Positions 13,679-22,880 of a stretch of DNA of 64,000 bases are shown here, in pieces (position 1 is the first letter of the stretch; every line of letters begins with the position of its first letter). The notes beneath the pieces were generated by a model. That model was not told the DNA's origin, searched no databases, and saw only the letters and a program-made list of their open reading frames with translations. Both the position numbers and the translations under genes were made by a program. The DNA is from Rhodospirillales bacterium BBD 1991-14 (GTDB taxonomy: Bacteria > Pseudomonadota > Alphaproteobacteria > Kiloniellales > Kiloniellaceae), in NCBI GenBank assembly GCA_001657395.1, contig LYSY01000006.1, forward strand, positions 1 to 64,000. Direction: 5' to 3'.

Positions 13679-14770
13679 GTGGCGATGGATGTAGCGGTCG
13701 ATATCGGCCAGGCAGCGGAACGGCAGACGCGGCGGTCGAGATACGCCCTCACCGCCTTCGCCACCGTTCTGCTGGCCGCGTTCTTCTTCGCGGTGGGCTA
13801 CGGCGCCGTTGCCATCGCGCCATTGGAGACGTTCGCCATTTTTCTGAGCCAGATCGGCCTCGACGTCTTGGGCGGCTACGAAGGGGTACAGGAGATGGTG
13901 CTGCTGGCCATTCGTCTGCCCCGGGCGATCCTGGCCCTCCTGGCCGGTGCGGCCTTGGCTGTTGCCGGCGCCGCGCTGCAGGGGCTTTTTCGCAACCCCC
14001 TGGCCGATCCCGGCCTTATCGGCGTCTCCACCGGCTCGGCGCTTGCCGCGGGTACGGCCATCGTGTTTGGCGGTGCGCTGCTGGGTGTTCTTCCGGTCTG
14101 GCTGAGCGCGGCGATCCTGCCGCTGGCCGCCTTTCTCGGCGGTCTCGCCACGACCCTGGTGGTCTACCGCATCGCCAGCCGTGACGGCCGCACCGAGGTC
14201 GCCACCATGCTGCTGGCCGGTATCGCGCTCAACGCGCTGGCGGCAGCGGGGATCGGCATGCTGGTCTTTGTGAGCGACGACCAGCAGCTCCGCGATCTGC
14301 AGTTCTGGCTGCTCGGCGGTCTTGGCGGTGTGACCTGGAACAGCCTGCTCTCGGCGGCCCCCCTGATCCTGGTGCCGACACTTCTCCTCGCGCTGTTTTC
14401 ACGTCAGCTGAACGCGCTCCTTCTCGGCGAAACGGAGGCCACCCACCTCGGCTTCGACGTGGAGCGCACCAAGCGCTTGATCATCGTGCTGGCGGCTCTT
14501 GCCGTCGGGGCCTCGGTGGCTCTGACCGGGGTCATCGGCTTCATCGGCCTGGTGGTGCCGCATCTGGTGCGCCTGATGATCGGCCCGGACCACCGCACCC
14601 TGCTGCCGGCATCGATCCTCTTAGGCGCGGCGTTGCTGCTGCTGGCCGATCTGGTTGCGCGGACCATTGTGCTGCCGGCGGAACTGCCCGTCGGTATTCT
14701 GACGAGCTGCATCGGCGGACCGTTCTTTCTCTGGCTGCTGATCCGCCGTCGCGGCCTGGGGATGTGGTGA
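13679..14770 (+). CDS. hmuU: Heme ABC transporter permease HmuU (FecCD family)
   Basis: A 363-residue inner-membrane permease of the BtuC/FecCD family that forms the heme channel. About ten hydrophobic segments are visible, with family motifs RLPRAILALLAGAALAVAGAALQGLFRNPLADPGLIGVSTGSALAAG and, near the C-terminus, GFIGLVVPHLVRLMIGPDHRTLLPASILLGA. The frame starts at GTG 13679 or ATG 13685, six bases after hmuT, and its stop overlaps the hmuV start, so the three genes are likely translated together. Confidence 0.93.
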   Translation: MAMDVAVDIGQAAERQTRRSRYALTAFATVLLAAFFFAVGYGAVAIAPLETFAIFLSQIGLDVLGGYEGVQEMVLLAIRLPRAILALLAGAALAVAGAALQGLFRNPLADPGLIGVSTGSALAAGTAIVFGGALLGVLPVWLSAAILPLAAFLGGLATTLVVYRIASRDGRTEVATMLLAGIALNALAAAGIGMLVFVSDDQQLRDLQFWLLGGLGGVTWNSLLSAAPLILVPTLLLALFSRQLNALLLGETEATHLGFDVERTKRLIIVLAALAVGASVALTGVIGFIGLVVPHLVRLMIGPDHRTLLPASILLGAALLLLADLVARTIVLPAELPVGILTSCIGGPFFLWLLIRRRGLGMW

Positions 14771-15576
14771 TGCTGAGCGCCTCGGCCCTGCGATACCGCT
14801 ACGGATCCAAGCCGATCCTCTCCGGCGTTTCCCTCTCCGTCCGGCCCGGCGAGGTGCTCGCCATCATTGGCCCGAACGGCGCCGGAAAGTCGACCTTGCT
14901 GCATCTGCTGTCCGGCGCCACGAAGCCGCAGGACGGCGACGTCAGCCTCGACGGGCGGCCCCTGCGGCAGTGGCGGCCGGCGGCGCTGGCCCGGCGGCGG
15001 GCCGTCCTGCCCCAGGCGCCGCTCCTGAGCTTTCCCTTCCGCGTGCTCGACGTGGTCATGCTGGGCCGCAGTCCCTATGCCGGACAGGTGGAGCGGCAGG
15101 AGGACCTGCGGATCGCGGCGGCGGCTCTGAGGGAGGCCGATGTCGAACACCTGGCCGAGCGCATCTATCCGACGCTTTCCGGTGGGGAGCGGCAGCGGGT
15201 GCAACTGGCCCGCGTGCTCGCCCAGGTCTGGCCGGCCGGCGCGGAAGGGCGCACGGATGAGCCAGAGGGCCTCCGCAGCCGTTATCTGCTGCTCGACGAG
15301 CCCACCAACAACCTCGACATCGCCCACCAGCAGACGGCGCTGGCCGCGGCCCGACGCCTGACCGGCCACGGTCACGGCGTACTGACCGTCCTGCACGATC
15401 CCAACCTGGCCGCGCTCCACGCCGACCGCATCTGCATCCTGCAGGGCGGGGCGATCGTGGCTGAGGGGGCACCCGATGCCGTCATCACCGAGCGCAATCT
15501 CGAAGCGGCCTTCGGCCTGCGCGTCACGGTGATGCGCCACCCCGCCAACGGCCGTGCCGTCATGGTGCCGGCGTGA
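14770..15576 (+). CDS. hmuV: Heme ABC transporter ATP-binding protein HmuV
   Basis: A 268-residue ATPase that powers HmuU. Walker A is GPNGAGKST near residues 37-45, the Q-loop glutamine lies in VLPQAP, the signature is LSGGERQRV, Walker B is YLLLDEPTNNLD and the switch His is in TVLHDPNLAALHADR. The insert between signature and Walker B (VWPAGAEGRTDEPEGLRS) is a usual HmuV feature. The chosen ATG at 14770 overlaps the hmuU stop; GTG codons at 14764 and 14767 are alternatives. Confidence 0.93.
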   Translation: MLSASALRYRYGSKPILSGVSLSVRPGEVLAIIGPNGAGKSTLLHLLSGATKPQDGDVSLDGRPLRQWRPAALARRRAVLPQAPLLSFPFRVLDVVMLGRSPYAGQVERQEDLRIAAAALREADVEHLAERIYPTLSGGERQRVQLARVLAQVWPAGAEGRTDEPEGLRSRYLLLDEPTNNLDIAHQQTALAAARRLTGHGHGVLTVLHDPNLAALHADRICILQGGAIVAEGAPDAVITERNLEAAFGLRVTVMRHPANGRAVMVPA

Positions 15577-15636
15577 TTGCGGGGTTTCACAGATACCAAG
15601 CACAGCAACCCCTTATCCGGATCACTGGAGGATTGC

Positions 15637-15948
15637 ATGTACATCGCCATGAACCGCTTTCAGGTGCGCCACGGCCACGAAGCCGAATTTGAGGAGGTCT
15701 GGAAAGGCCGCGACAGCCGGCTGAAGGACGTGCCCGGCTTCGTCGAGTTCCACCTGCTCAAGGGACCCGAGCATGAGGATTACCGGCTCTACTCCTCCCA
15801 CACCCTCTGGGCCACGCGCGAGGACTTCGAGGCCTGGACGAAGTCGGAAGCCTTCCGAGACGCGCACCGCTCCGCCGGTGGAAACCGACACATGTACCTC
15901 AACGGCCCCCACTTCGAGGGCTTCGACGTGGTCCAGCATATGAAGTAG
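15637..15948 (+). CDS. IsdG/HmoA-type heme-degrading monooxygenase
   Basis: A 103-residue ferredoxin-like protein of the antibiotic-biosynthesis-monooxygenase superfamily. Asn6 (MNRFQV), Trp67 (EAWTKS) and His77 (RDAHRS) fall at the positions of the IsdG Asn-Trp-His catalytic set, so opening of the heme ring with release of iron is the likely reaction in the cytoplasm. The ATG at 15637 follows a TGGAGGA ribosome-binding site at 15625-15631. It is the last gene of the heme operon and provides the step after HmuTUV import. Alphaproteobacterial relatives are named HmuQ or HmuD; I have not assigned a symbol. Confidence 0.85.
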   Translation: MYIAMNRFQVRHGHEAEFEEVWKGRDSRLKDVPGFVEFHLLKGPEHEDYRLYSSHTLWATREDFEAWTKSEAFRDAHRSAGGNRHMYLNGPHFEGFDVVQHMK

Positions 15949-16215: not shown

Positions 16216-16472
16216 CAGCTTGCTCGTCCTGACGGCGCAGAACTGGTATTCGTTCCACCGGTCTCCTGCTCCGCCTGCTCGAACCAGCCGATTACGCGCG
16301 CAAGATGGGCCTCTCCCCAGGTCGCAATGAACTTCTGCGTGTGGTGGTCAGCCGGGTCGCGAAGCGCCGCGAGACGTTGTTCGACATAGGCCTGGGTGAG
16401 CGGGATGCCGCAAAGCACAGTGATGCAATGCTTCCAGTCGTCGTAAGTCGTCAGAGATTGCATTACGGTCAC
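16215..16472 (-). CDS. Small protein of unknown function downstream of thrS
   Basis: An 85-residue soluble protein with a distinctive aromatic and His-containing middle: [17 protein letters not shown], then [39 protein letters not shown] recall similar small proteins next to alternative threonyl-tRNA synthetases but cannot name a family. It starts at GTG 16472, overlapping the thrS stop by four bases, so it is translationally coupled to thrS. The two Cys (positions about 16 and 21) and the adjacent His residues could bind metal, but this is speculative. Confidence 0.65.
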
Positions 16473-18454
16473 CCTGCCTCCGCTTTTGCAAGCTGCTCCT
16501 TGTCCTCGCTCCGACCCCCGACCGTCGGAAGGTTTACGGGAGAACTTGTGCTGCGAAGTGCTTCGGTTTCGAGCCGAACCATGGCTTCGCGTAACCTCAG
16601 GGTTTCGGTGTCGTTGCGGCCGATCCGGCGGAACGACACGGTGCCTTCTTTCGCCTCGCGTTTGCCCACGATCAGGAGCACCGGGACTTTGGCCAGGCTG
16701 TGCTCGCGGATCTTGTAGCCGATCTTCTCGTTCCTCAGATCGGTCTCGATCCGGAGGCCAAGAGACGTGAGTTGGGCGGCGATCTCGTTGGCATAGGAGT
16801 CGCAGTCGGAGGTGATCGTCGCGACGACAGCTTGGACCGGCGCCAGCCAGATCGGAAGCTTACCTGCATAGTGTTCCAGAAGGATGCCCGTGAACCGTTC
16901 CAGCGAGCCGAAGAGGGCCCGGTGCAGCATCACCGGGGTGTGCTTCTCGCCATCGGCGCCTACGTAGAGGGCGCCAAGCCGCTCAGGCAGATTGAGGTCG
17001 ACCTGCAGCGTGCCGCACTGCCAGTCGCGGCCGATGGCGTCCCGCAGAACGAACTCCAGCTTCGGTCCGTAGAACGCGCCCTCGCCGGGATTGGTGGTGT
17101 AGGCAAGTCCGGTCGCCTCGACCGCCGCCTGCAGGGCTGCCTCGGACTTGTCCCAGATCGCATCCGAGCCAATGCGCTTCTGAGGTCGGTCCGAGAACTT
17201 GACCCGCACGTCTTCGAAACCGAAGTCGCGGTAGATGCTCAGAATGAGTCGGCAAACGATTCGACATTCCTGGGTGATCTGCTCTTCCGTGCAGAAGATG
17301 TGAGCGTCATCCTGAGTGAAGGCGCGCAGGCGCATGAGCCCGTGCAGCGCGCCCGATGGCTCGAACCGGTGAACTTTGCCGAACTCGGCAATGCGCAGGG
17401 GCAGATCGCGGTAGCTCTTGATCCCCTGCTTGTAGACCTGGACCCCGCCGGGGCAGTTCATCGGCTTCAGGGCAAATACACGTTCCTCCTTTGCTTCAGT
17501 GGTGAACATGTTTTCGCCAAACTTATCCCAATGGCCCGACTGCTCCCACAGGCTCCGCTCCATAATGTCCGGCGTGTTGATCTCGACGTAGCCGGCCCTG
17601 GTCTGACGCTGGCGCATGTAGTCGATGAGGGTCTGGAACAGTGTCCAGCCCTTCGGGTGCCAGAAGGCGGCGCCCGGCGCCTTCTCCTGGAAATGAAACA
17701 GGTCCATCTCGCGGCCGAGCTTTCGGTGATCGCGCTTCTCGGCTTCTTCAAGCTGCCGAAGATAGGCATCGAGCTCAGCCTGGTCGCGCCATGCGGTACC
17801 GTAGATCCGCTGCAGCATCGGATTGCGATGGTCGCCGCGCCAATAAGCGCCGGCGACTTTCAGCAGCTTAAAGGCGATGCCGAGCTTGCCGGTCGAAGGC
17901 AGGTGTGGACCGCGGCAGAGGTCGCGGAACTCTCCCTGGCGATAGACGCTCAATGTCTCGGTTTCCGGTATGTCGGCAATAATCTCGGCCTTGTAGCGCT
18001 CGCCCTTGGATTCGAAATAGCGGATCGCGTCGTCGCGCTGCCACTGCTCGCGCTCAATCACCTCGTCCCGCGCGACGATCTCCCGCATGCGTTCCTCGAT
18101 CCGCCCGAGGTCTTCTGGCGTGAACGATGTCTCGCGCGCGAAGTCGTAGTAGAACCCGTTCTCAATCGTCGGGCCGATGGTGACCTGGGTCTCGGGATAG
18201 AGTTCCTTTACGGCCTGGGCCATGACGTGGGCTGCGTCATGCCTCAGCAGCTCGATCGCTTCGGGCTCTTCGTCGATCACGATCTCGACCTCGGCATCGT
18301 CTTCGATCAGCGTGTTGAGATCGCGCAAGGCGCCATTGATCCTCAGAGCCAGTGCCCTGTCAGCGATCGTGCCGCCTACACGGGCCGCGATCTCTGTGCC
18401 ACGAACCGGCCCGTCATGGCTCTGAACGCCGCCTTTCAAGACAATCTGTATCAT
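16469..18454 (-). CDS. thrS: Threonyl-tRNA synthetase, probable zinc-starvation paralogue
   Basis: A full-length 661-residue ThrRS that attaches Thr to tRNA(Thr). In order it has an N-terminal TGS domain (residues 1-62), the editing domain with HDAAH near residue 75, the class II catalytic core and the anticodon-binding domain ([21 protein letters not shown] onward). Motif 3 region GSLERFTG is present. The catalytic zinc ligands are retained: Cys333, His384 and about His510. The usual MNCPGH reads MNCPGG. The gene sits in a Zur-type operon, so it is probably an extra copy used when zinc is scarce; the housekeeping copy would be elsewhere in the genome. Confidence 0.9.
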
Positions 18455-18565: not shown

Positions 18566-19048
18566 TCATGTTCGAATCTCCTGTTGGATACTCGCGACGG
18601 CGGGTCGCTCCCCTGCGCGCTCCAGGCGCAGCTCCGCAATCGCGTGTTGCAGCGCATCGAAGGGAAGCAGTGCCGAGCTATGGCGGCTTCGGAAGTCCGC
18701 CACCGGCAGGAACGGCTCGAGCCCCGCCCAAGGCCCTGGTGTTGGGAACGTCTTTTCCCGGAGAACGGCGCGCATAACCCCTGCGCCCTCGTCCACCTCG
18801 TCGATAGTCAGGCCAACGACGACCCGGGCAACGACGGAGGCGGCCGCTTGCCCGATGACACAGGCTCTAACCTCTTGGGCGTAGTCGGTGATGACATCTT
18901 CATTGAGCCTGAGGTCGATGGTGATCCGACTACCGCAAAGCCGGCTATGCGCGGTTGCTGATGCGTCGGGGGTCGCCAACCTGCCAACCCGAGGTATCGA
19001 CGCGGCAAGCCGCAGGATCTGCTTGTTGTAAAGATCGAGGTCCATCAT
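18566..19048 (-). CDS. NifU/IscU-like iron-sulfur scaffold family protein
   Basis: A 160-residue protein with the N-terminal NifU/IscU-like fold: YNKQILRLAASIPRVGRL then CGSRITIDLRLNEDVITDYAQEVRACVIGQAAASVV. Cys near positions 37, 62 and 65-region segments follow the scaffold pattern loosely; the RACVIGQAAAS segment corresponds to the second Cys block of IscU. The ATG at 19048 is chosen because GGGGGAAG lies just upstream. It is placed between the COG0523 GTPase and thrS. Assembly or transfer of a metal centre under zinc limitation is possible; a true Fe-S role is not shown by the sequence. Confidence 0.75.
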   Translation of the reverse strand: MMDLDLYNKQILRLAASIPRVGRLATPDASATAHSRLCGSRITIDLRLNEDVITDYAQEVRACVIGQAAASVVARVVVGLTIDEVDEGAGVMRAVLREKTFPTPGPWAGLEPFLPVADFRSRHSSALLPFDALQHAIAELRLERAGERPAVASIQQEIRT

Positions 19049-19222
19049 GCGCTTCCCCCGGCAAGGCTGTCCGGGACATGCGCCATGGCGCCTGCGCAAG
19101 TGCGCGCAAGCAGATGCGAGAGACTGCTTGCCCGATGAGGCGAAAGATATTCGCCGAACCAGGTAAGCGGAACGAAGGTCTCGTTCCGGCGTATCGGAGG
19201 GTTGGTTCGGACGAGGGGCATC

Positions 19223-20416
19223 TCACTTCCTGTTCTCCAACTGAGCCATGTCGGCTTGCCCACTGTCCCCTGGACCAAACGGCTGCACCGGCTGCTCCAC
19301 GCTTTCCAGCCCGGCCGTGAATATCTTCAGCGTGTTCCGCAATACCGTCTCGTCGAGATCGCGGGTGATAAAGACGATGCGGGTGCGCCTGTCCTTACCC
19401 GGCCATTTCTTGAGCATGACCGGCGGGTGAAAAATATGCTGTACGCCATGGACCACGAACGGACCTTTCAGGCCCTGGATATTGACGATTCCTTTGACGC
19501 GAAGGACGTCCGGACCCTTGAGCAGCAAGAGCGCTTCAAGCCAGCGATCAAAAGCATCCCCGGGGATCGGATCTTCCAGCGTCAGGCATACGGCTTTGAT
19601 GTGGTCGTCGTGTCGATTTACGTCATGATGGTGGTCGTGACTGTCGGCGCCATGATGGACACTGTGCCCGTGATCGTGATGCGGCTCACGGTGTGTTTCA
19701 TGGTGATGGTGGTCGGTGTCGCTAAAGGCTTCGGCGTTCAGCCAGCGCCGAACATCGAGGCTCTTGGTTTTCGGATTGTACAGTCCGGCATCCAGCAACT
19801 TTGCGGGATCGACCGTGCCGTTGATCGTGCGGATGATCGGCGCGCCCGGGTTCAGCGCACTCAAGCGCTGGACCAGCGCCGCGACAGCATCGGGTTCGAC
19901 AAGATCAGTCTTCGTCAGCAGCAGCCGATCGGCCACGGCCGCTTGCTTTACGGACTCGACCTGACAGTCGAGCGTTCGCTGGCCATTGGCAGCGTCGATC
20001 GTTGTGATAACACCATCGAGGCGATAGCGGGCGGCGATCAGCGGGTCGGTCATAAGAGTGTGCAAGATGGGCGCCGGATCGGCGAGCCCCGTCGTCTCGA
20101 TGACCACGCGGTCGAATTCGGGGATTTCTCCTCTTACGCGGCGCAGGAACAGGCTGCGCATCGTGTCGATCAGATCGCTGCGGATCGTGCAGCAGAGGCA
20201 GCCGCTCTGCAGCAACACCATGTCTTCGCTGGACCGCTCCACGAGTTCGTGATCGAGGCCGGTCTCGCCGAACTCGTTTATGATGACGAGGGTTTTCGCC
20301 AGCTCAGGCTGTTGCACGAGCTGGTTCAGCACCGTCGTTTTGCCGCTGCCCAGGAAGCCGGTCAGCAGAGAAACTGGTATGCGTTGTTGTGGCGCGGTCG
20401 AATCCCAGCTTTCCAT
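19223..20416 (-). CDS. COG0523 GTPase, putative zinc metallochaperone
   Basis: A 397-residue CobW/COG0523 protein. Walker A GFLGSGKTT lies at residues 20-28, the metal-binding GCLCC motif at 72-76, Walker B as ETTG and the base-recognition motif TKTD follow. Residues about 230-272 form a loop with some 17 His among 40 positions, a typical zinc-binding insert. The C-terminal CobW domain begins near VCLTLEDPIPGDAFDRWLEALL. Members next to Zur supply zinc to selected enzymes (ZagA, ZigA, YeiR type). It starts 21 bases after zur, in the same operon, and likely serves the zinc enzymes encoded around it. Confidence 0.92.
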   Translation of the reverse strand: MESWDSTAPQQRIPVSLLTGFLGSGKTTVLNQLVQQPELAKTLVIINEFGETGLDHELVERSSEDMVLLQSGCLCCTIRSDLIDTMRSLFLRRVRGEIPEFDRVVIETTGLADPAPILHTLMTDPLIAARYRLDGVITTIDAANGQRTLDCQVESVKQAAVADRLLLTKTDLVEPDAVAALVQRLSALNPGAPIIRTINGTVDPAKLLDAGLYNPKTKSLDVRRWLNAEAFSDTDHHHHETHREPHHDHGHSVHHGADSHDHHHDVNRHDDHIKAVCLTLEDPIPGDAFDRWLEALLLLKGPDVLRVKGIVNIQGLKGPFVVHGVQHIFHPPVMLKKWPGKDRRTRIVFITRDLDETVLRNTLKIFTAGLESVEQPVQPFGPGDSGQADMAQLENRK

Positions 20417-20437: not shown

Positions 20438-20944
20438 TCAGGCAGCGCCGGCCGCGATGCAATTCGTGCAGGTGCCCTCGACCTCGATCACGCGCCGTGT
20501 TGCGCGGAACCCGATAAGGGCGGCATCCTCGTAGATCAAGCGCTCAAGCCGCTGGTCTTCCAACTCGACCGATGCCCCGCAGTTGCTGCAGATGAAGAAC
20601 AGACAGTCATGCTGGCGCTCCGGATGCGCGCAGGGGACGTAAGCGTTCCGGCTTTCGACCTTCGAGACGAACCCCTGGGACATCAGGAACTCAAGCGCCC
20701 GGTAGACGGTGGGCGGCCCGACCGGGCGGGAGTCCCTCAGCTTCAGCGCTTCGATCAGTTCATAAGCGCCCGTCGGGCGACCACGCTCCCAGAGCAGCTC
20801 CAGGATCTGCCGCCTGAGTGGCGTTAGCCGCGCGCCGCGCGCACCGCAGAGGGACTCTGCCAGCGCAATCCGTTCAGCCGGCGCATGCTGCCCACGGCAG
20901 TTGGAATCGGTGCAGGGCTGGGGCTGGATCGTCGGGAGCGCCAC
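20438..20944 (-). CDS. zur: Zur-like Fur-family zinc-responsive repressor
   Basis: A 168-residue Fur-family regulator. The DNA-binding part reads RLTPLRRQILELLWERGRPTGAYELIEAL, with recognition helix PPTVYRALEFL, and the dimer domain has CAHPERQHDCLFFICSNCG with a final CTNC, giving two CxxC pairs for structural zinc. Assignment to Zur rather than Fur rests on its neighbours and on the adjacent palindrome. The open frame extends to a TTG at 20968, but GTG 20944 is preferred because GGGATAAGG precedes it. It is the first gene of the leftward operon, so it probably represses itself. Confidence 0.87.
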   Translation of the reverse strand: MALPTIQPQPCTDSNCRGQHAPAERIALAESLCGARGARLTPLRRQILELLWERGRPTGAYELIEALKLRDSRPVGPPTVYRALEFLMSQGFVSKVESRNAYVPCAHPERQHDCLFFICSNCGASVELEDQRLERLIYEDAALIGFRATRRVIEVEGTCTNCIAAGAA

Positions 20945-20975
20945 GACCTTATCCCGTCTTGCTTTCAAAGAACGT

Positions 20976-20989
20976 AATGTTATAACATT
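20976..20989. promoter_or_regulatory. Zur-box-like perfect palindrome
   Basis: AATGTTATAACATT is a perfect 14-base inverted repeat in the AT-rich divergent zur/folE region. The TGTTATAACA centre matches the core of known Zur operators. It lies about 32 bases before the zur start and 67 before folE, so one site can control both operons. Confidence 0.8.
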
Positions 20990-21055
20990 GTATTCATAAA
21001 TTACAATAGCCTAGTGCCTCTGAGCGCCTGGCCTGGCTGCAGGAGAGGATTCGAC

Positions 21056-21709
21056 ATGGACGCAGCAGTGGTCGGTACCCGGCCTGCAGAATCAATGCTC
21101 ACTAACGCGGGCCGGCGCCAACGGCCCAGCCAAACAGAGGCGGAAGCGGCAGTGCGGACGCTCATCGAATGGGCTGGTGACGACCCCGACCGCGAAGGCC
21201 TCATAGGGACGCCCAAGCGCGTGGTGCGGGCCTATGAGGAGTTCTTCGCAGGATACAACGAAGACCCAGTCGCGCTGCTTGAGACGACGTTCGAGGAGGG
21301 TGCTGTCTACGACGAGATGATCGTCTTGCGCGACATCCGCCTCGAATCGCACTGCGAGCACCACATCGTTCCTATCCTGGGTAAGGTACATGTCGGTTAT
21401 CTGCCGACGGGCCGCGTCGTCGGGATTTCCAAGCTGGCACGCCTCGTCGAAGTGTTCGCCAAGCGGCTGCAAATCCAAGAGGTGCTGACCTCGCAGATCG
21501 CGGACACCATCCAGGAGGTGCTCAATCCGCACGGTGTGGGCGTCGTTATCGAGGCGGCGCACCAATGCATGACCACACGCGGTGTCCGCAAGCCGGGTGT
21601 CAGCATGGTGACCAGCCGCATGCTCGGCTCTTTTCGCGACGACCCGGCGACCCGCCGGGAGTTTCTCGCCATGATCGGAAGCCCTAGGAGTGGCTCAAAT
21701 GGATCCTGA
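21056..21709 (+). CDS. folE: GTP cyclohydrolase I type IA
   Basis: A 217-residue zinc enzyme that converts GTP to dihydroneopterin triphosphate, the first step of folate and pterin synthesis. Zinc ligands Cys100, His103 (SHCEHH) and Cys171 (HQCMTTRG) are all present, so this is the zinc-dependent type, not the FolE2 type often used in zinc starvation. [17 protein letters not shown] and [14 protein letters not shown] are family motifs. The ATG at 21056 follows AGGAGAGG. It is divergent from zur across the Zur-like box and overlaps hisI, so it is probably an extra copy made when zinc is low. Confidence 0.93.
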
Positions 21710-22199
21710 CAAATCTGTTCCGGCAGCCGCCGCCTTCGCCGCCCGGATGACGGTCGAACAGGTCGAAGAAGGCCTCGCCCTGGCGCCCAAGTTCGACGCC
21801 GACGGACTGATCCCCTGCATCACCACCGAGGCCGATAAGGGCGAAGTACTGATGCTGGGCTACATGAATGGCGAGGCTCTACAGAAAACGATCGCGACCG
21901 GTGAAGCGCACTACTGGAGCCGAAGCCGCCAGTGCCTCTGGCGCAAGGGCTCGACCAGCGGCCTCGTCCAAGAAGTTGTCGAGATGCGCATCGACGACGA
22001 TCAGGACGCCGTCTGGCTGCGCGTCCGGGTCGCTGATTCGGGCGCCAGTTGTCATGTCGGATATCGTTCCTGCTTCTATCGTTCGGTTGAGCTCGGCGGG
22101 CCAACCGATGGACCGGCCCGCCTCGTGTTCACGGAGTCAGGGAAATCCTTTGACCCGAAGGACGTCTACGGTGACGCGCCGAATCCGACGCAGCTTTGA
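21699..22199 (+). CDS. hisI: Phosphoribosyl-AMP cyclohydrolase HisI, probable paralogue
   Basis: A 166-residue enzyme of histidine synthesis that opens the adenine ring of phosphoribosyl-AMP. Motifs present are [30 protein letters not shown], an acidic metal patch near residues 99-103 (DDDQD) and [14 protein letters not shown] with Cys118 and Cys125. The length and domain are those of a stand-alone HisI without the HisE half. The start is ATG 21699, with a TAGGAG ribosome-binding site inside folE; the frame could also open at GTG 21690. Its place after folE and beside zur marks it as part of the zinc-limitation response. Confidence 0.9.
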
Positions 22200-22442
22200 G
22201 GTCGGACGACCGCTTCTACTACTGTCTCATCGAATCGACCAGCATTTCGGAGCCGCTGCCCATGGCGGCCACCCTTAACGCCCGGACGTGTGGGCGAGGC
22301 CGTCCGCCTTGGTCCGAGCAGAGGGCGCTACGCGGCCCCGGCGGCACGATCTGACTCTGTACTAAGTCGATCGCTTCCAATACTGTTGTGTACAGACAAT
22401 CAACGAGGAGTCTGATCGATTTCCGAGCGCGTTTTTGAGCCT

Positions 22443-22880
22443 ATGACCAAGGCGGAAGTCGTCGCCGCGCAGCGTGCTTGGGCCAAGTACGTGACCGAGC
22501 GCGACGTCGACAAACTCTTGGACCTCTACGATTTCGGCGCACCGGACGAGCCGCTCCTTTTCAAGCCGACTTTGGCTGATGTTATTCGGCTCGATCGCGC
22601 TGGAACGCGGTCCTACTTTGTGGGCGGCGATCCGAACTATCCCCACGACCATGGCTTTCTCAACCGAGGTTGGAAGCGCGTGGATTTCCAGAGCGCTGCC
22701 GGACCGATCCTAAAGGCCGGGGGACTCGGCTATAAGGACATGGGGCACTACACCTTCATCGACGGGGACGGCAATGCGACCCGCGCCGACTACACCTTCG
22801 CCTATCACAAGCTAGACGGACGCGTTCTCATCTCGTTGCATCATTCCTCACTCACCTGGTTTCCCCCTCTAGAGGACTGA
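22443..22880 (+). CDS. Iota-class carbonic anhydrase-like protein (COG4337/CaMKII-AD fold)
   Basis: A 145-residue cytoplasmic protein of the NTF2-like superfamily. The pattern GGDPNYPHDHGFLNRGW (residues 61-77), GHYTFIDGDG, ADYTFAYHKLDG and a terminal LISLHHSSLTW with HHSS at 133-136 resembles iota-class carbonic anhydrases, whose members from algae and bacteria have been described as active without zinc. No signal peptide is seen. It lies 243 bases downstream of hisI on the same strand in the zinc-starvation locus; no second Zur-like box is evident. A zinc-free carbonic anhydrase used when zinc is scarce would fit well. The alternative is a generic SnoaL-like protein. Confidence 0.65.
   Translation: MTKAEVVAAQRAWAKYVTERDVDKLLDLYDFGAPDEPLLFKPTLADVIRLDRAGTRSYFVGGDPNYPHDHGFLNRGWKRVDFQSAAGPILKAGGLGYKDMGHYTFIDGDGNATRADYTFAYHKLDGRVLISLHHSSLTWFPPLED

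Follow-up and report, generated by a model that had tools for sequence, protein, structure and literature searches.

A cytosolic iota-class carbonic anhydrase homologue as a probable zinc-sparing back-up in a bacterial zinc-starvation island

The window, a stretch of 64,000 nucleotides from the marine Rhodospirillales bacterium BBD 1991-14, encodes a homologue of the COG4337-type iota-class carbonic anhydrases (CAs) next to genes for a Zur-like regulator, a COG0523 GTPase and paralogues of zinc enzymes. On balance, we favour the view that this protein is a cytosolic, metal-independent iota-CA and serves as a zinc-sparing back-up within a Zur/COG0523 zinc-starvation island. Judged from the sequence, the assignment to the iota-CA family is firm, as the match lies far above chance, and a function as zinc-sparing carbonic anhydrase is likely.

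Family, fold and catalytic residues

The iota gene occupies 22419..22880 on the + strand and its product comprises 153 amino acids when counted from an ATT start codon; the 145-codon open reading frame at 22443-22880 (+), on which the original prediction was based, is its ATG-to-stop part. This frame contains all four motifs pointed out in that prediction, GGDPNYP, FLNRGW, ADYTF and HHSS, but HHSS is not terminal as had been claimed: nine residues follow, placing it only near the end. In a sequence search of the PDB the best matches were 7c5x (E 2.7e-30) and then 7c5v (E 1.2e-17), whereas the Xanthomonas protein 3h51 matched at 2e-5 only. The cited passages of Hirakawa et al. 2021 (PMC8132391) describe 7c5v and 7c5x as the COG4337-type iota-CAs all2909 and Bn86287, respectively, and those of PMC8425729 describe 3h51 as a Xanthomonas iota-CA. 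The window protein is nearer to the metal-free COG4337 type (7c5x, 7c5v) than to 3h51, a single protein that presumably stands for the COG4875 type. The NCBIfam profile for metal-independent carbonic anhydrase, NF047901, matched with E 3.2e-21 over profile positions 82-203 of 205, with 75.6 bits against a curated cut-off of 350 for equivalog membership. CaMKII_AD was the sole Pfam family at E up to 1 and remained marginal (E 0.18, below cut-off).

An AlphaFold model of the protein (pLDDT 84.5, pTM 0.82) retrieved 7c5v first, followed by 7c5x and 3h51, in a Foldseek search of the PDB (ranks 1-3 with E 4e-11 to 1.4e-10), which places its NTF2-like alpha+beta barrel nearest to 7c5v and 7c5x. Thr106, Tyr124, His197 and Ser199 of 7c5v align with T51, Y66, H141 and S143 in numbering from the ATT (T43, Y58, H133 and S135 in the ATG-start frame), as counted by hand along the pairwise PDB alignment. 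T51, Y66 and S143 are invariant and H141 is found in 90% or more of 81 aligned sequences, namely the window, 79 of 80 relative loci (the truncated L069 was omitted) and the second homologue of the same genome, L002. According to the cited text of PMC8132391, the cyanobacterial enzyme lost its activity when these four residues were replaced by alanine. The window protein shares with all2909 and Bn86287, as described there, the fold, the HHSS motif and the Thr/Tyr/His/Ser set, and like the prokaryotic COG4337 iota-CAs of that account it has a single COG4337-like domain. The iota/COG4337 class proposed in the original prediction is thus backed by sequence matches, by the fold search and by the catalytic residues. 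An unrelated SnoaL or NTF2 family as best match, the outcome named beforehand as speaking against that class, did not appear and is ruled out by the Pfam, NCBIfam, PDB and Foldseek results. In one relative (L060, 9977-10435) Gln replaces the first His of HHSS (VQHSS), one of the catalytic positions in the cyanobacterial enzyme.

A similar fold and pocket could also belong to an NTF2-fold protein that fulfils another role in zinc starvation, for example the binding of another small anion or assistance to the COG0523 chaperone. The model indeed also resembles, among lower Foldseek matches, an NTF2-like protein without assigned function, CaMKII hub domains, a putative ketosteroid isomerase and other NTF2-like proteins; moreover, the NF047901 cut-off was missed and we found no assay of this subfamily in the literature. 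Still, all four residues required for activity in 7c5v are present, three of them invariant in the 81 sequences, and the closest solved relatives are two assayed metal-free enzymes, and we therefore regard this alternative as improbable.

Inspection by eye revealed no signal-peptide-like leader in the iota protein of the window, unlike most bacterial COG4337 members, for which a signal peptide is predicted in the cited passages of PMC8132391. A second iota homologue of the genome on contig 19 (L002:1489-2043) has a signal-peptide-like N-terminus, likewise judged by eye. The genome probably holds both an exported form (contig 19) and a cytosolic form (window) of the enzyme.

A probable ATT start codon

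Translation of the iota gene very probably begins at ATT (22419..22421, +) rather than at the ATG at 22443, which lies 24 bases further on; this reading draws on the bases upstream and on aligned start codons in relatives. An in-frame TGA (22413-22415) stands two codons before the ATT with no ATG, GTG, TTG or CTG between them, and a ribosome-binding site GAGGAG (22405..22410, +) ends 8 bases before the ATT, at a position similar to that in type-A relatives. We read the DNA upstream of the ATG in the 82 loci that carry the query's N-terminus (L003, L008-L087 and, for the window itself, L001). Among 62 type-A loci, with the window's copy counted and L003 omitted as a presumed duplicate of L011, the aligned codon eight codons upstream of the ATG is ATG in 27, ATT in 18, ATC in 4, GTT in 4 and GTG in 4; 5 loci have yet another codon there and a slightly longer or shorter N-terminus. 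In the 19 type-B loci an ATG or GTG lies six codons ahead of the ATG.

The 26 type-A loci (of 62) with ATT, ATC or GTT at the aligned start are nearly all alphaproteobacterial, and most of these codons follow a purine-rich ribosome-binding site. In 12 of the 26, including the window, no in-frame ATG, GTG, TTG or CTG lies between the upstream stop and this codon; the remaining 14 contain one or more, and in L071, the only gammaproteobacterium of the group, a GTG adjoins the GTT. Mean entropies at the three codon positions ahead of the ATG are 0.42, 0.52 and 1.33 in these 26 loci, compared with 1.74-1.78 in the DNA further upstream. Since the variation falls mostly on third positions, unlike in the DNA further upstream, the codons ahead of the ATG look translated. 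Two relatives (L024 and L042) lack an ATG at the position of the window's 22443, and in each a different start further upstream is possible. The start state, canonical or non-canonical, requires 14 or more changes among 75 rows on a tree that was built without these residues and is poorly resolved; in a like tree, 51 of the 78 inner branches are open. In E. coli only two genes, infC and pcnB, are said to start at AUU, and IF3 discriminates against its own AUU there, according to the cited passages of PMC9410913.

The zinc-starvation island and its predicted regulation

On the - strand of the window, one gene run encodes a threonyl-tRNA synthetase (ThrS) paralogue (16469..18454), a NifU/SufU-like protein (18566..19099; Pfam NifU_N 1.8e-7), a COG0523/CobW GTPase with a GCLCC motif and 22 histidines (19223..20416; Pfam cobW 2.5e-47) and a Zur-like regulator of the Fur family (20438..20968; Pfam FUR 1.5e-11). 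The latter matches the NCBIfam Zur profile NF008646 at 1.2e-33 with 116 bits, under the cut-off of 167. Divergently, on the + strand, follow a paralogue of GTP cyclohydrolase I (FolE, 21056..21709), a paralogue of phosphoribosyl-AMP cyclohydrolase (HisI2, 21690..22199) and the iota gene. The grouping of zur and a COG0523 gene with zinc-enzyme paralogues is characteristic of a zinc-starvation island. The genes at 14764-15948 adjoining the island encode the ATPase of a haem ABC transporter and an HmuQ-like haem-degrading protein.

FolE, HisI and ThrS of the island, all identified by profile matches, are considered paralogues because the genome contains further matches elsewhere: two for FolE, one for HisI, and for ThrS one on another contig (65% identity over residues 7-634) plus weaker ones. 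One of the three FolE matches of the genome (L177, contig 10) reads with an internal TGA. In an alignment, HisI2 has DDD where the solved enzyme 1zps has DCD and the other copy of the genome DCDGD, and it thereby lacks one of three cysteines that we take to be zinc ligands. Of the eight HisI copies that relatives carry near the iota gene, seven have lost the same cysteine (L008, L011, L059, L071, L082, L083 and L084, with L072 as the exception), whereas two aligned HisI copies away from the gene (L089 and L131) do not show this loss. FolE retains HCEHH and HQC and ThrS the corresponding positions, which presumably are the zinc ligands of these enzymes. The island is therefore not uniformly zinc-independent, and a scheme in which all of its enzymes work without zinc is ruled out.

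A palindrome resembling a Zur box, GTAATGTTATAACATTGT, lies between zur and folE at 20974..20991 and is the predicted Zur site of the island, supported by a palindrome match to the consensus that we assumed for the site search and by a shuffle test. At a threshold of 14/18 or better, 22 such sites were seen in 81 loci (window's copy included) versus 1.0 expected from shuffles; there was no excess at the laxer threshold of 12/18 (123 versus 120). The 250 bases before the window's iota gene contain no high-scoring Zur box. Within the same distance of the start, one was found in a single relative out of 80 (L049), 42 bases upstream, where it adjoins a divergent cobW and may serve that gene. Eight of the 80 loci reached an empirical p of at most 0.02 for an upstream Zur box, compared with 1.6 expected, mostly with low scores. 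A general rule that a Zur box stands directly before the gene is thus ruled out. The original prediction had placed the enzyme beside Zur-controlled genes: the co-location is real and recurs in a minority of relatives, but an own Zur box of the iota gene was not found, the predicted site lying between zur and folE.

In our preferred reading, Zur would leave this site when zinc becomes scarce, and its release would allow expression of folE and hisI2. The iota gene, 219 bases downstream of hisI, would then be expressed as well, probably by read-through from the folE promoter, which is possible given that neither a terminator-like nor a sigma-70-like site is predicted in the gap; Rfam gave no match to a known regulatory RNA at E up to 1 in 22190-22470. 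In the enzyme, the Thr and Tyr hydroxyls would take the place of a metal in activating the water that hydrates CO2, and bicarbonate would be supplied while the metal-dependent gamma-CA lacks its metal. Our survey of the genome for alpha-, beta-, gamma- and iota-CAs yielded no alpha or beta match, one clear gamma-CA, which is 40% identical to E. coli YrdA and retains HVNH and GHQALIH, and a hexapeptide match that is weak and partial (E 4e-4). That the iota enzyme replaces a zinc carbonic anhydrase when zinc is short, as suggested in the original prediction, is plausible in this genome.

The island resembles sets of Zur-regulated paralogues described before: Zur, COG0523, HisI, ThrS, a GTP cyclohydrolase and a carbonic anhydrase all recur in the cited text of Haas et al. 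2009 (PMC2770081). That account has a gamma-class carbonic anhydrase in place of the window's iota-class one, a FolE2 cyclohydrolase rather than a FolE with HCEHH, and HisI paralogues that are said to keep their zinc-binding residues, whereas HisI2 has lost one Cys. Also unlike those systems, no Zur box directly precedes the carbonic anhydrase gene of the window. The cited passages of PMC6103462 place the carbonic anhydrase genes ytiB of Bacillus subtilis and can of Pseudomonas in Zur regulons; can encodes a gamma-CA, and neither gene is described there as iota-class, in contrast to the window gene. In Cupriavidus metallidurans (PMC11340326) and Burkholderia cenocepacia (PMC10563805) a COG0523 gene is clustered with a carbonic anhydrase gene as it is here. 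According to the same excerpts, these clusters also hold QueD and either FolE2 or a metal-flexible GTP cyclohydrolase, along with further paralogues of zinc enzymes, and are expressed on zinc loss; the C. metallidurans carbonic anhydrase is the gamma-class Cam in the cited text of PMC2770081. We found no report in the open-licence literature that ties an iota-CA to Zur or to zinc limitation, although one may be in print elsewhere. Both the zinc-island context and the ATT start set the window gene apart from all2909 and Bn86287.

If our reading is correct, an iota-class enzyme joins the set of replacement enzymes. Of the cases cited above, those of Haas et al. 2009 and Pseudomonas can are gamma-class, and for ytiB and B. 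cenocepacia the cited passages give no class. Metal-free carbonic anhydrases have been proposed to help cells in metal-poor water, in part on the basis of which cyanobacterial strains inhabit the open ocean (cited passages of PMC8132391). Linkage of a cytosolic iota-CA to Zur and COG0523 genes in several lineages makes this proposal testable: zinc loss should induce the iota gene, and the iota gene should spare zinc.

Relatives and their association with zinc genes

A protein-only scan of genome contigs, which was made without regard to gene context and finds close relatives only, confirmed 86 relative loci, of which the best 80 (74-97% identity) were analysed. Of these loci, 75 are from metagenome assemblies and 5 from isolates, Roseobacter and Tateyamaria isolates (L044 and L058) among them; they belong to Pseudomonadota (67), Planctomycetota (5), Myxococcota (3) and five other phyla with one locus each, binning errors being possible for loci of odd phyla. 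We searched the 1.32 Mb of DNA from these 80 loci, among which neither the window's copy nor L003 is counted, for seven markers: Zur, COG0523, FolE, HisI and ThrS from the window, FolE2 from L072 and CysS from L082. The controls were 60 stretches, each 20 kb long and 1.20 Mb in total: contigs 1 and 19 of the same genome supplied 38 of them, another genus of the family 20 and a congener the remaining 2.

At least one zinc marker was present in 20 of 80 relatives and in 1 of 60 controls (one-sided Fisher p 5e-5), and two or more in 14/80 versus 0/60 (p 2e-4, same test), with the caveats that FolE2 and CysS were drawn from the test loci themselves, that the controls represent few genomes of one family without the genome's own zinc contig 8 while the test loci span many taxa, and that the loci are partly non-independent (the window's kin L008 and L011 are included) and differ in flank length. 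Zur-box-like sites were likewise enriched: the relatives had 21, spread over 17 of the 80 loci, and the 60 controls had a single one (one-sided Fisher p 3e-4). The association with zinc islands, in a minority of loci, is statistically well supported. The neighbouring zinc genes vary between loci (hisI, cobW, folE, cysS or thrS), and the zinc label requires at least 20 changes on the poorly resolved tree, so a single block passed on by descent does not account for the association.

These data also bear on a different explanation, in which the protein is a genuine iota-CA that is blind to zinc, has its own promoter, has spread among marine bacteria to meet general CO2 or pH needs, and has come to lie in zinc islands because these collect transferred genes. 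The available flanks of 60 of the 80 relatives, many of them short, contain no marker, and a high-scoring upstream Zur box occurs in L049 alone. A motif search in 78 sequences identified an element, situated roughly between 71 and 41 bases ahead of the start, that recurs in a minority of them (fitted fraction 0.35-0.45; log-likelihood 178 versus 85 for shuffled sequences, width 24), in alpha- and gammaproteobacterial loci alike, and that is weak when averaged over 61 type-A loci. This recurring element means that the iota gene may have its own, zinc-blind promoter, although no sigma-70-like site is predicted in the gap ahead of the window's gene. Occurrence is patchy as well: among 385 genomes of the class, an orthologue at 88% identity or more was found in 7, own genome included, and within the genus in 2 of 8 genomes. 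Set against this are the enrichment of zinc genes and Zur boxes over controls with neighbours that differ by locus, and the at least 20 changes of the zinc label, which do not fit a single inherited island. We thus hold a zinc-blind iota-CA to be rather unlikely, though clearly less so than another role of the fold. What counts against the back-up function that we prefer is the lack of an own Zur box, the 60 of 80 relatives without a marker, the missed NF047901 cut-off, the possible zinc-blind promoter, the presumed zinc ligands retained by FolE and ThrS of the island and the restriction of the orthologue to 2 of 8 genus genomes.

All other homologues met in the 385 class genomes are 44% or less identical to the window protein, and nothing is listed between 44% and 88%, which sets its subfamily apart. 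With slightly less than even confidence, we propose that this is a discrete, strongly conserved subfamily of cytosolic metal-free carbonic anhydrases that has been recruited repeatedly and across phyla into zinc islands, where it replaces metal-dependent CAs; the AUU, AUC or GUU starts of many alphaproteobacterial members might add translational control.

Identity to the window at third codon positions is 0.83 for L008 and 0.79 for L011, but only 0.37-0.58 for the other 11 of 13 relatives compared, in which protein identity is 76-95%. This pattern indicates old divergence under strong constraint. Recent copying of near-identical DNA across phyla is unsupported in the pairs examined, given the low third-position identity of those 11. 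The flanks of 82 loci, inspected by eye, showed no shared downstream end of the kind that a mobile cassette or insertion element with fixed ends would leave. More distant iota homologues with 34-41% identity (L162-L168) occur in seven 1.4-Mb genomes of the class.
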